Assembly: GCA_001771575.1 (NCBI GenBank)
Contig: MEUD01000001.1
Location: 1 to 64,000 of the forward strand
Source of the DNA: a candidate division WOR-1 bacterium RIFOXYB2_FULL_45_9
Lineage (GTDB): Bacteria; Margulisbacteria; WOR-1; O2-12-FULL-45-9; XYB2-FULL-48-7
DNA: 64,000 nt
Direction: 5' to 3'
A program made the position numbers and the translations under genes. Shown here piece after piece: positions 36,461-56,653 of the stretch; position 1 is the stretch's first letter; every line of letters starts with the position of its first letter. The notes under the pieces were generated by a model. It saw nothing but the letters and a program-made list of their open reading frames with translations. It ran no database searches and was not told the DNA's origin.

Positions 36461-37444
36461 ATGATCACATATAAACAGGCTGGAGTCGATATCGAAGCCG
36501 GATACGAAGTCGTCCGCCGGATCAAAAAGGTGGCTAAAGGGATTGGCTCGTTCGGCGGGCTTTTTCCGTTCGGCAAGCAGTATTTGGTTGGAGCGACGGA
36601 CGGAGTAGGAACTAAATTAAAACTGGCATTCATGCTTAACAAGCATGATACGATCGGTATTGACCTGGTGGCGATGAACGTTGACGACGTGGTGGCGATG
36701 GGGGCAAAACCTCTTTTTTTCCTGGACTACATCGGGACCCAAAAAGTTGAGCCCGGGGTGATCGAAAAGATCGTGAAGGGGATCGTTGAAGGGTGCCGCC
36801 AATCCGGAGTGGAGCTGGTCGGCGGCGAAACGGCCGAACTTCCCGACATGTACCATAAGGGAGAATACGACCTGGCCGGCTTCGCGGTCGGAGTGGTCGA
36901 CAAGAACAAGGTGATCAACGGATCGACGATCAGGGAAGGGGATAAGATCATCGGGCTGGCGTCGTCGGGACTGCACAGCAACGGGTATACTCTGGCCCGG
37001 AAAGTGATCTTTGAAAAAGCCAGTCTTGGCCCGGGCGATAAGATCGATGACTTTAACAAGTCGATCGGCGAAGTCCTTTTGACCCCGACCCGGATCTACG
37101 CCGCGCTGATCCTGGAGCTGATCAATAAGTTCACCATCAAAGGGATCGCTCACGTGACCGGCGGCGGCATCCCGGAGAATCTGGGGCGGGTTATTCCGCC
37201 CAAAAGACAGGCGGTCATTGAGCTCAACTCCTGGGAGATTCCCAGGATCTTCAAGCTGATCAAAAAACTTGGTGAGGTCGACCATGCCGAAATGTACAAG
37301 ACCTTCAACATGGGGATCGGTATGATCCTGGTCGTTCCGGCTAAAGAGACCGACAAGCTTCTTGATCTCCTGGCGAAGAAAAAGGAAAAAGCGTTCTTGA
37401 TCGGTGAGATCTCGAAGGGGAATCAGGAAGTTATTATAATTTAA
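36461..37444 (+). CDS. purM: Phosphoribosylformylglycinamidine cyclo-ligase
   Basis: This 327-residue AIR synthetase closes the imidazole ring in purine synthesis. ATP/substrate motifs GATDGVGTKLKLAF, GIDLVAMNVDDVVAMGAKPLFFLDYI, GGETAELPDMY and HVTGGGIPENL are all present. The ATG at 36461 matches the family start (ITYKQAGVDIEAG) and has AAAGGGG upstream; the open frame upstream is a shadow of the zinc-ribbon gene. A cloverleaf repeat separates it from purN. Confidence 0.96.
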   Translation: MITYKQAGVDIEAGYEVVRRIKKVAKGIGSFGGLFPFGKQYLVGATDGVGTKLKLAFMLNKHDTIGIDLVAMNVDDVVAMGAKPLFFLDYIGTQKVEPGVIEKIVKGIVEGCRQSGVELVGGETAELPDMYHKGEYDLAGFAVGVVDKNKVINGSTIREGDKIIGLASSGLHSNGYTLARKVIFEKASLGPGDKIDDFNKSIGEVLLTPTRIYAALILELINKFTIKGIAHVTGGGIPENLGRVIPPKRQAVIELNSWEIPRIFKLIKKLGEVDHAEMYKTFNMGIGMILVVPAKETDKLLDLLAKKKEKAFLIGEISKGNQEVIII

Positions 37445-37508
37445 ACCCCCTCTGCCTCCATTTCGTTTCGGCTTCTCCCCCTTAGCAAGGGGGAGATCGA
37501 GAGGGAGT
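37445..37508 (+). repeat. Cloverleaf palindromic element, copy 1 (purM-purN)
   Basis: The outer arms ACCCCCTCT (37445-37453) and AGAGGGAGT (37500-37508) pair at 8 of 9 positions. Inside is a 9-bp hairpin with a 3-base loop (37475-37483 with 37487-37495, CTCCCCCTT/AAGGGGGAG). Between the left arm and this hairpin lies a CGTTTCGG-containing segment shared with the other copies. Confidence 0.85.
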
Positions 37509-37525: not shown

Positions 37526-38128
37526 ATGCTTAAATTAGGAATTTTAATTTCAGGGGAAGGCTCGAACCTTCAGGCGATAATTAACGCTTGCGAAAGCGAC
37601 AGGATACCCGGCAAGGTCGTTGTTGTTATCTCCAACAACCCAGATGCGCATGGTTTGGAGAGAGCCAAAAAACACAATATTCCGGTTTTCGCGATCGACC
37701 ATAGGAGCTACTCCGACCGAAATACCTACGAATTGGAGATCGTGAAAGTTCTCCAGCAACACGAAGTGGAACTGGTCTGCCTGGCCGGTTATATGCGGAT
37801 CGTTGGAGAGGTCCTGCTCCAGCGCTACCGCGGCAAAATGATCAATATTCATCCCTCGCTTCTCCCTTCATTTCCCGGACTTCACGCCCAACGACAGGCG
37901 CTTGAGCACGGCGTCCTGATCACCGGCTGTACCGTTCATTATGTCGACGAGGGGTGCGATACCGGGCCGATTATTATTCAATCCGCTGTGCCAATTATGG
38001 AAAAAGACGACGAAAATACTTTGGCGGAAAGGATCCTTGCGCAGGAACACGCGATCTATCCGGAAGCGATCAGGCTGATCGCTGAAGATAAATTGAAAAT
38101 AGAGGGGAGAATAGTGAAATTGAAATGA
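37526..38128 (+). CDS. purN: Phosphoribosylglycinamide formyltransferase
   Basis: This 200-residue enzyme transfers a formyl group from 10-formyl-THF to GAR. The family N-terminus LGILISGEGSNLQAII, the catalytic region CLAGYMRIV, NIHPSLLPSFPG and the GCTVHYVDEGCDTGPIIIQ segment are all present, with Asn-His-Asp catalytic residues in place. It overlaps purH by 4 bases (ATGA). The purM-purN gap holds a cloverleaf repeat, so the operon may be structured there. Confidence 0.96.
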   Translation: MLKLGILISGEGSNLQAIINACESDRIPGKVVVVISNNPDAHGLERAKKHNIPVFAIDHRSYSDRNTYELEIVKVLQQHEVELVCLAGYMRIVGEVLLQRYRGKMINIHPSLLPSFPGLHAQRQALEHGVLITGCTVHYVDEGCDTGPIIIQSAVPIMEKDDENTLAERILAQEHAIYPEAIRLIAEDKLKIEGRIVKLK

Positions 38129-39716: not shown

Positions 39717-39780
39717 ACTCACCCCCTGTCCCCCTCTCTTTTTATGAGAGGGGTGCCGAACGAAGTGAGGCGGGGTGAGT
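39717..39780 (-). repeat. Cloverleaf palindromic element, copy 2 (after purH)
   Basis: Outer arms ACTCACCCC (39717-39725) and GGGGTGAGT (39772-39780) pair perfectly over 9 bp. An inner hairpin pairs CCCCTCTC (39731-39738) with GAGAGGGG (39746-39753). A CGAACGAAGTGAGG segment is the reverse complement of the corresponding part of copy 3, so this copy is in the opposite orientation. Confidence 0.85.
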
Positions 39781-39801
39781 TAATAGGAGGAAAAAGGAAA
39801 T

Positions 39802-55633: not shown

Positions 55634-56590
55634 ATGCATATTTTTTTTCCCAGCTTCCTTATCGCTCTGCTAGTTACCGTTTTTTGCACGCCGGTCGCTA
55701 GAAAAGTAGCCTTTAAAATAGGAGCGGTCGACCACCCCAACGACCGGAAGATCCATTCGACGGATATTCCCAGGATCGGTGGAGTAGCGATTTACGCCGG
55801 TTTTATTGCCGCTGTCGTTTTTGGCCTGGCGCTTGGATATTTTACCGGGGTCCATCTTAACCCCCGCCCGATCATTGGGATCCTGATTGGTGGAACCATC
55901 GTTTTTCTTTCCGGTCTCAAGGATGACCTGCGGGGATCGCGCCCGTTGACCAAACTCGCCTGGCAGACTTTAGCTGCGATTGTCGCGATCTATTTTGGGA
56001 TCGAGATCTCATTTTTTTCCAATCCTTTTAACGGGATCATCCCGCTCTTTGGTTTTATCGCGATCCCTTTAACTATTCTCTGGCTGGTTGGGATGACCAA
56101 CGCCATCAATCTGATCGATGGTTTGGATGGCCTGGCGACCGGGGTGATCGCGATCTCGGCCGGGACCCTGTTTTTCGTTGCGTTGCGGACCCACCAGATC
56201 GAAGCGGCCCTTTTTATTATCGCGATCGCCGGTGCCGCTCTTGGCTTTTTACGGTACAATTTTTTTCCTGCCTCGATCTTTCTGGGAGACTCCGGGAGCT
56301 ACCTGCTTGGTTTTATCGTTGCCGCCGCGTCAATTATCGGAGTGTTCAAGACTACTTTAGTGGTCGCCTTGATCGTCCCTCTCTTGATCCTGGGGGTGCC
56401 GATTTTTGACACGACCTTCGCGATCCTGCGCCGGATCAAAGAGAAAAAAAACCCATTCGCCGCGGACAACAGGCACATTCATCATGTTTTGATCCGGGCC
56501 GGCTTGACCCAAAGGGAAGCGGTCATGTCGATCTACATTGTTTGCTTTTTATTGAGCGCGACCGCGCTGATCATGTCGTTGCAAAAATGA
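55634..56590 (+). CDS. Undecaprenyl-phosphate N-acetylaminosugar 1-phosphate transferase (WecA-like)
   Basis: This 318-residue polytopic enzyme is of the MraY/WecA family. Catalytic motifs are the early LKDDLRGSRPLT (Asp pair), NAINLIDGLDGLATG, LGDSGSYLLGF and the late HIHHVLIRAGLTQREAV. It links a UDP-HexNAc phosphate to undecaprenyl phosphate to start an O-antigen, enterobacterial-common-antigen-like or wall polysaccharide. It is followed by wecB, separated by a cloverleaf repeat, which supports WecA rather than MraY. Confidence 0.92.
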   Translation: MHIFFPSFLIALLVTVFCTPVARKVAFKIGAVDHPNDRKIHSTDIPRIGGVAIYAGFIAAVVFGLALGYFTGVHLNPRPIIGILIGGTIVFLSGLKDDLRGSRPLTKLAWQTLAAIVAIYFGIEISFFSNPFNGIIPLFGFIAIPLTILWLVGMTNAINLIDGLDGLATGVIAISAGTLFFVALRTHQIEAALFIIAIAGAALGFLRYNFFPASIFLGDSGSYLLGFIVAAASIIGVFKTTLVVALIVPLLILGVPIFDTTFAILRRIKEKKNPFAADNRHIHHVLIRAGLTQREAVMSIYIVCFLLSATALIMSLQK

Positions 56591-56653
56591 CCCACTCTGC
56601 CGTCACTTCGTTCCGGCATCTCCCCCTTGGCAAGGGGGAGAACGAGAGGGGGT
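56590..56653 (+). repeat. Cloverleaf palindromic element, copy 3 (wecA-wecB)
   Basis: Outer arms ACCCACTCT (56590-56598) and AGAGGGGGT (56645-56653) pair at 8 of 9 positions. The 9-bp hairpin (56620-56628 with 56632-56640, loop GGC) is nearly identical to that of copy 1, and a GCCGTCACTTCGTTCCGGC segment can form a third stem. The element starts in the wecA-like stop codon. Confidence 0.88.

Follow-up and report, generated by a model that had tools for sequence, protein, structure and literature searches.

A palindromic element between purM and purN of a WOR-1 bacterium is probably a gene-less derivative of a one-gene DUF559 unit

What is the 64-bp palindrome that lies between purM and purN in this candidate division WOR-1 genome, and from what kind of mobile unit could it derive? 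In the window (the whole stretch of 64,000 nucleotides that was analyzed), the element occupies exactly the positions given by the first-pass annotation and begins directly after the purM stop codon, which ends at 37444; purN starts at 37526. The parts of the element and its two relatives in the window are as follows.

37445..37508, plus strand: solo BoxC-like palindromic element of the CTCCCCCTT type, between purM and purN
37445..37453, plus strand: 5' outer box ACCCCCTCT, pairing with 37500-37508 (direct reading, pair count)
37454..37472, plus strand: short hairpin hp1, four pairs in the model and an 11-nt loop, with one pair not formed in this copy
37474..37496, plus strand: long hairpin hp2, TCTCCCCCTT-AGC-AAGGGGGAGA
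37500..37508, plus strand: 3' outer arm AGAGGGAGT
56590..56653, plus strand: solo element of the CTCCCCCTT type, 83% identical to the 37445 copy, with the same order of parts
39717..39781, minus strand: solo element of a second type, with outer box ACTCACCCC and hp2 CCCCTCTC, after purH

Folded as single-stranded DNA, the 37445 copy forms an outer stem and two hairpins, that is, a three-way junction, and this fold was matched by 1 of 200 dinucleotide shuffles (z -3.2). For the copies at 56590 and 39717, none of 200 shuffles folded as well (z -3.8 and z -5.6, respectively). The folded-palindrome design proposed at first sight is therefore retained with two corrections: the long hairpin has a stem of 10 to 11 bp with a 3-nt loop instead of a 9-bp stem, and the supposed third segment with CGTTTCGG actually belongs to the short hairpin, as its loop and 3' arm. 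Recurrence at 39717 and 56590 had likewise been claimed, and both copies were found; the one at 39717 has the opposite orientation and different stem sequences and represents a second sub-family, similar to ends that DUF559 units have in other genomes (L079, L081, and L132). The 56590 copy begins on the final base of the TGA that terminates the gene upstream. At 37445-37508, Rfam at its gathering scores gave no family and the terminator or promoter search gave no hit, and a literature search with strings of the element sequence returned nothing useful.

A covariance model built from four copies of the same genome was used to search its 1,668,697 bases. This search yielded six full copies at E values of at most 1.4e-13, two diverged full-length copies (39717 and 1651509), and, at 1.589 Mb, a pair of end-halves; further copies are thus present, contrary to what the first-pass annotation had named as its refuting outcome. 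The match at 1651509-1651556 is to a shorter relative of the element, with 40 bits on one strand and 32 on the other. The four own copies alone gave no covariation beyond that of shuffles. In an alignment of 58 rows from six genomes (all kept, 56 distinct, with two duplicates and three second-strand readings of the same site), 16 of 24 pairs showed two-sided changes and 95.1% of the cells were paired, which none of 500 shuffles reached.

Among the copies whose position was checked, the three in the window adjoin, and do not lie inside, the genes annotated from open reading frames, and two others in the genome are located within the hemW frame. The hemW frame (104644-105828; L017:2142-3329, minus strand) reads through a full element near its 3' end (TPSSFPPLAKGENVERSETRGG) and also runs through a second element at its 5' end. 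At the 3' place, HemW of the sister species is gapped and its residues differ, and the protein starts after the 5' place. Judged from these frames, the palindrome can be translated, given its in-frame copies in hemW.

The sister species, whose PurN is 87% identical, also has a short purM-purN junction without the element. This orthologous junction and the further genome copies bear out the view of the first-pass annotation that the element is dispersed and MITE-like, and we take the 37445 element to be an insertion of such a palindrome. To describe the target, we used 52 of the 58 rows, leaving out the two duplicates, the three second-strand readings, and the one weakest row. None of these 52 copies is directly flanked by four or more shared letters, as a target-site duplication would be, but the flanks are biased: T stands at position -2 in 29 copies and at -3 in 26, and TG directly precedes the element in 16 copies, against 3.0 expected. 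A rule that the element always inserts at stop codons was rejected, holding in only 9 of the 52 copies when we asked for an open frame of at least 80 codons whose stop ends just before or at the first base of the element.

A candidate parent is found in the same genome. The two end-halves at 1.589 Mb are in inverted orientation and bracket one gene of 143 amino acids with a DUF559 domain; the inverted end, with both hairpins, is present on each side, and the DUF559 gene is the sole gene inside. By direct reading, this unit spans 514 bp between an M50 peptidase gene and folC, with the junction reading TAA, unit, ATG. In the sister species the site is closed (..CTGGTCTAATGGACC..), the M50 stop and the folC start overlap (TAATG), and there is no palindrome. 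Genome G067 holds another DUF559 gene, flanked on the left by a full element and on the right by an end, so that the element has terminal parts in common with gene-bearing units in both genomes, as the definition of a MITE asks. In genome G047, the element adjoins a broken DUF559 copy with stops (L125:1263-1584); there the gene has decayed and the palindrome has been kept.

Against DUF559 as the mover, an element match adjoins a DUF559 gene, by coordinates, in only 3 of the 19 genomes that have the element, one of these genes being a remnant, and genome G069, with 43 element matches, has two DUF559 genes that both carry ends of another type. This scarcity may reflect gene loss, incomplete assemblies, or a different mover. 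Also in G069, two inverted element copies at locus L304 enclose two open reading frames that resemble genes for secreted proteins. In two species of one genus (L080 in G031 and L083 in G032), the right end of one DUF559 unit differs by end repetition, a sign of end turnover.

The protein encoded by the own-genome unit matches DUF559 (PF04480) with an E value of 1.2e-25 and 89.9 bits, against a curated cutoff of 20.6; in Pfam, DUF559 is still a domain of unknown function. A structure predicted from 18 sequences (pLDDT 83) matched NGO0050 (E = 1.4e-5), the I-Bth0305I homing endonuclease domain (3r3p; E = 8e-5), and, weakly, Vsr (1vsr; E = 0.03). NGO0050, the best structural match of the model, comes from the gonococcus. 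The invariant columns of the 18 sequences include E, D, E-x-D-G, and H, as would be expected for an active nuclease. The DUF559 protein is thus probably a PD-(D/E)XK nuclease similar to Vsr and I-Bth0305I, with DNA cutting as its predicted activity. At E = 1.5e-7, PADLOC matched part of the protein to a model of type II methyl-directed restriction enzymes and to DpdF. Two publications bear on the family: in Caulobacter, a damage response is caused by a DUF559 protein with a predicted role in mismatch repair (PMC12907096), and in Legionella, three repeated segments with a part in recombination carry DUF559 next to a transposase (PMC12308824).

The association with hairpins extends far beyond this genome. 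We counted hairpins no more than 260 bp from the domain that had a perfect stem of 8 bp or longer, a loop of 3 to 5 nt, and a GC content of 40% or higher, a rule that accepts any GC-containing hairpin, and we give the counts in the order left side, right side, both sides, and shared stem 7-mer. Among 78 loci of the phylum (79 of 100 DUF559 places, the 21 weakest, many of them fragments, being left out, and one lost for a short flank), the counts were 49, 42, 38, and 34, leaving 29 left and 36 right sides without a hairpin by the rule. At a distance of 600 to 860 bp from the same genes, they dropped to 2, 2, 0, and 0 of 69, and Markov shuffles gave 0.45, 0.7, 0, and 0. When the right flanks were dealt at random, 9.0 loci on average (maximum, 16) shared a stem 7-mer.

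A set of loci with named records, the best 80 of 362 relatives, of which 41 are cyanobacterial by title and three were lost for short flanks, behaved similarly, with 60, 58, 46, and 39 of 77 near the gene, 2, 1, 0, and 0 of 65 away from it, and, in the random deal, 14.8 loci on average (maximum, 21) with a shared 7-mer. The two sets overlap by up to four loci, since at least L204 and L265 repeat phylum sites and L214 and L234 are identical or extremely close to L080 and L083. Going by record title, hairpins on both sides occur in Cyanobacteria, Margulisbacteria, Nitrospirae, the Ignavibacteria/Chlorobi group, Patescibacteria (Buchananbacteria), Chthonomonadaceae, Actinomycetota, and Planctomycetes. 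One of the 46 double matches, L263 from Bacteroidetes, is two-sided by the rule with unrelated hairpins, and the loci from Spirochaetes, Neomarinimicrobiota, and Gracilibacteria have a hairpin on one side only. The Neisseria gonorrhoeae DUF559 locus (L387) has a C/T-rich hairpin on its right side only.

Other DUF559 genes in 27 genomes of the named loci, from other phyla, gave 12, 11, 9, and 6 of 19 (30 loci, 11 of them already used), with 0 of 16 away from the gene. Records of a plasmid collection gave 12, 11, 7, and 7 of 21, with one left, three right, and no two-sided hairpins away from the gene. These 21 records (12 Proteobacteria, 6 Cyanobacteria, and 3 Deinococcus), taken from 36, leave out nine that are relatives of included ones or E. 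coli and six unlisted ones; both DUF559 genes on Picosynechococcus plasmids had no palindromic end. PurN control loci gave 2, 1, 0, and 0 of 13 (20 loci, of which four were absent and three too short). GxxExxY genes, another small PD-(D/E)XK family, gave 1, 1, 0, and 0 of 23 (25 of 32 places, 23 usable) and were rejected as another partner, with hairpins on both sides at none of the 23.

Stem sequences vary among DUF559 genes (CTCCCCCTT, CCCTCTCCC, CCCTCTCCAT, CCCCTCTCTT, CCTTCCCTT, CCCTCCCCTT, and others), and this variation follows the protein. We built a tree of 157 DUF559 domains over 106 columns, with 73 of 153 inner branches open, leaving out L204 and L265 and keeping L214 and L234. For the 123 genes with a palindrome label, the stem class changes 42 times on the tree, compared to at least 82 times in 200 label shuffles. 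When labels were shuffled only within genomes (11 genomes), the minimum was 43 and none of 500 shuffles reached 42; the palindrome type therefore goes with the DUF559 protein clade and not merely with the host. On one deep branch, 19 of 28 rows have no palindrome label.

The boundaries of the units can be read where similar ones occur at unrelated sites. Genome G067 holds two units at unrelated sites that are 92% alike over 500 bp and end exactly at CCTCACCCC and GGGGGTGAGG, and in genome G029 two units, 81% alike over 527 bp, end at TAATCCCCC and GGGGGAT. These are the 2 of 16 compared pairs of similar units that have clean boundaries at the outer box, the remaining pairs being at orthologous sites, having truncated ends, or giving alignments that end elsewhere. 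In both, the boundary boxes lie outside the hairpins, so that the unit would consist of box, spacer, hairpin, gene, hairpin, spacer, and box, and, given these boundaries, a solo element would correspond to one end plus the far box.

This architecture recalls a known repeat family. BoxC, later found again as PIT elements and as TM motifs, is a family of triplex-forming repeats that dates back to the early 1990s and has been counted in more than 260 genomes (PMC4666352). According to this 2015 study, triplex formation occurs in vitro, the motifs are markers of variable loci in E. coli, and all 23 motifs of strain MG1655 are intergenic. It reports that remnants of a transposase or integrase are lacking in the vicinity of the E. 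coli motifs, and neither DUF559 nor ycjD is mentioned in the text (PMC4666352). In the full-text literature searched, which has most subscription journals and all preprints outside it, we found no link of DUF559, YcjD, COG2852, or PF04480 to BoxC or triplex repeats.

In our element, the outer box ACCCCCTCT agrees with the mirrored arm of the long hairpin, TTCCCCCTCT, at 8 of 9 letters by direct reading; in the window copies, the small hairpin separates this box from the long hairpin. For the outermost hairpin of 187 asymmetric DUF559 ends, the mirrored arm fitted better than the direct one in 92, worse in 35, and equally in 60, and the large classes CCCCCCTT, CTCTCCTT, and CCCTCCTT showed no mirror advantage. 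With all arms of the hairpin nearest the gene, the contrast was weak (0.725, versus 0.702 direct and 0.658 shuffled), in part owing to the many arms that almost equal their own mirror image. Overall, the outer box would thus be a mirror of the hairpin arm, as a triplex requires, if not in every class.

E. coli itself provides a case. In strain K-12, the DUF559 gene ycjD adjoins fabI, also called envM. It was the envM region in which BoxC was first reported, going by the reference list of PMC4666352. An imperfect BoxC-type end (..CCCTCACCCTAACCCTCTCCCCAGAGGGGCGAGGGG..) was seen by eye on the right side of ycjD only, reading CCCTCACCC-TAA-CCCTCTCCCC-AGA-GGGGCGAGGG, and neither side of the gene passes the hairpin rule used for the counts. 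The 40-mer from this copy occurs at 75,370 places in 5,375 of 5,426 E. coli genomes, with a median of 15 per genome.

The observations that call for a common explanation are the anatomy, the association with DUF559 genes, its clade specificity, one unit at a site empty in the sister species, and one repeated unit. We consider it probable that the element is a nonautonomous BoxC/PIT/triplex-repeat derivative of a one-gene DUF559 unit, and we infer that DUF559 moves the repeats and recognizes and cuts ends of its own type. The parent unit would be composed of an outer box, a spacer or small hairpin, a pyrimidine/purine hairpin, the DUF559 gene, and the same end inverted, and a solo copy would be the unit minus the gene, with one full end and the outermost box of the other. 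The nuclease may recognize folded ends of its own type, in hairpin or triplex form, and cut or nick either them or the target. Host replication or repair could then place a copy of the folded strand at sites with a frequent TT(G/C) sequence and with no target duplication, such sites being intergenic or, in at least one case, located in frame within a gene. PD-(D/E)XK nucleases form no covalent intermediate, so strand joining would need host enzymes. This point speaks against the reading, as do the few element-bearing genomes with a DUF559 gene next to an element, the ends of another type in G069, the DUF559 loci that have no hairpin by the rule, the imperfect and one-sided end at ycjD, and the small share of unit pairs with clean boundaries.

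The main rival, which we regard as unlikely, is that the palindromes pre-exist and spread otherwise, with DUF559 acting as a stand-alone homing nuclease that targets them. The homing endonuclease domain among the nearest solved structures fits this idea, as do the solo copies in genomes that have no DUF559 gene of the same type beside them, and a palindrome serving as the target would also produce the clade specificity. A gene homed into a palindrome, though, should be flanked by its halves, whereas the own-genome unit carries both hairpins, inverted, on each side; moreover, the empty site of the sister species has no palindrome to be targeted, and the unit copies of G067 have their common boundaries at the outer boxes, beyond the hairpins.

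Still less probable is that the tracts arise and move through their structure, by replication stalling and template switching, and that DUF559 is a repair or defense nuclease kept alongside. The triplexes formed in vitro by BoxC/TM motifs and their variable E. coli loci (PMC4666352) would agree with this, as would the Caulobacter damage response and predicted mismatch-repair role (PMC12907096), but such a process gives no reason to expect a gene flanked by inverted ends, a palindrome type that tracks the protein clade within one genome, or the presence and absence of a 514-bp unit containing a gene.

The mover proposed by the first-pass annotation was a RAYT/TnpA-REP transposase, that is, a Y1 (HUH) enzyme. 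The size, palindromy, intergenic position, and lack of target duplication of the element fit it, and RAYT genes flanked by REPs or TIRs are described in passages of PMC3733652. The proposal fails on the gene itself: our genome has one Y1_Tnp gene, with no element copy in its flanks, the nearest match of the covariance model lying some 700 bp upstream at chance level (16 bits, E about 1). This single gene, Y1/IS200-like (154 amino acids; 234737-235081; L016:1456-1920), has surrounding repeats of its own, CGCAGGTTTCCATGC twice and GGAAGCC..CGACGAT on both sides. Across 74 genomes, inspection by eye found no Y1_Tnp gene and element near each other among the matches listed, the closest pair on one contig among these being about 20 kb apart, in G069. 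Hairpins do occur beside Y1 genes (left 9, right 9, both 8, and shared 7-mer 4 of 27 usable loci, from loci for 30 of 69 places), but they differ in sequence from the element, e.g., CCCCACAC. With a single Y1 gene devoid of the element, other hairpins beside Y1 genes, and no proximity in 74 genomes among the matches listed, we rejected RAYT/Y1 as the partner, and its involvement is very improbable.

For the derivation from a DUF559 unit, the meaning would lie in the pairing, which gives each side a testable role, the repeat family gaining a candidate enzyme and the nuclease family a candidate substrate, with the DUF559 gene and the BoxC repeat side by side in E. coli K-12. If it is true, a widespread family of bacterial repeats gains a partner gene, and the task that RAYT performs for REPs has a second, unrelated solution. 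Taken alone, the repeat belongs to a known kind, and the DUF559 unit would be of a new kind if the nuclease were shown to move it. We lean slightly toward the wider claim that, unlike in known mobile units, a small Vsr-like DUF559 protein mobilizes triplex-forming ends of its own clade, without duplication, and is the source of BoxC/PIT/TM and related pyrimidine-rich palindromes across bacterial phyla, including those of E. coli.

Compared to known systems, the closest likeness of the repeat itself is to BoxC/PIT/TM, with which it shares the C/T-rich, short-loop hairpin, the outer box mirroring its arm, and the dispersed, multicopy occurrence in many bacteria; unlike these, the copies in the window also contain a second, small hairpin and a 3' arm that closes the structure, and their stem sequences are different. 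Like REP/BIME repeats with their RAYT genes (REPtrons and TIRtrons), they are dispersed palindromes that are paired with and bracket a gene family, here without target duplication, but the partner is a PD-(D/E)XK DUF559 protein and not an HUH Y1 enzyme, and the hairpin sequences differ. Stand-alone EDxHD Vsr-like homing endonucleases such as I-Bth0305I share the predicted nuclease fold, whereas DUF559 genes have inverted palindromic ends and gene-less solo copies, neither of which homing endonucleases are known to have. As in classical MITEs of DDE insertion sequences, internally deleted derivatives would keep the terminal inverted repeats, in contrast to which there is no target-site duplication here and the own-genome unit has DUF559 as its only gene. 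Finally, Rickettsia palindromic elements occur as translated in-frame copies inside protein genes, and the copies in hemW are alike in lying in frame within a protein gene.
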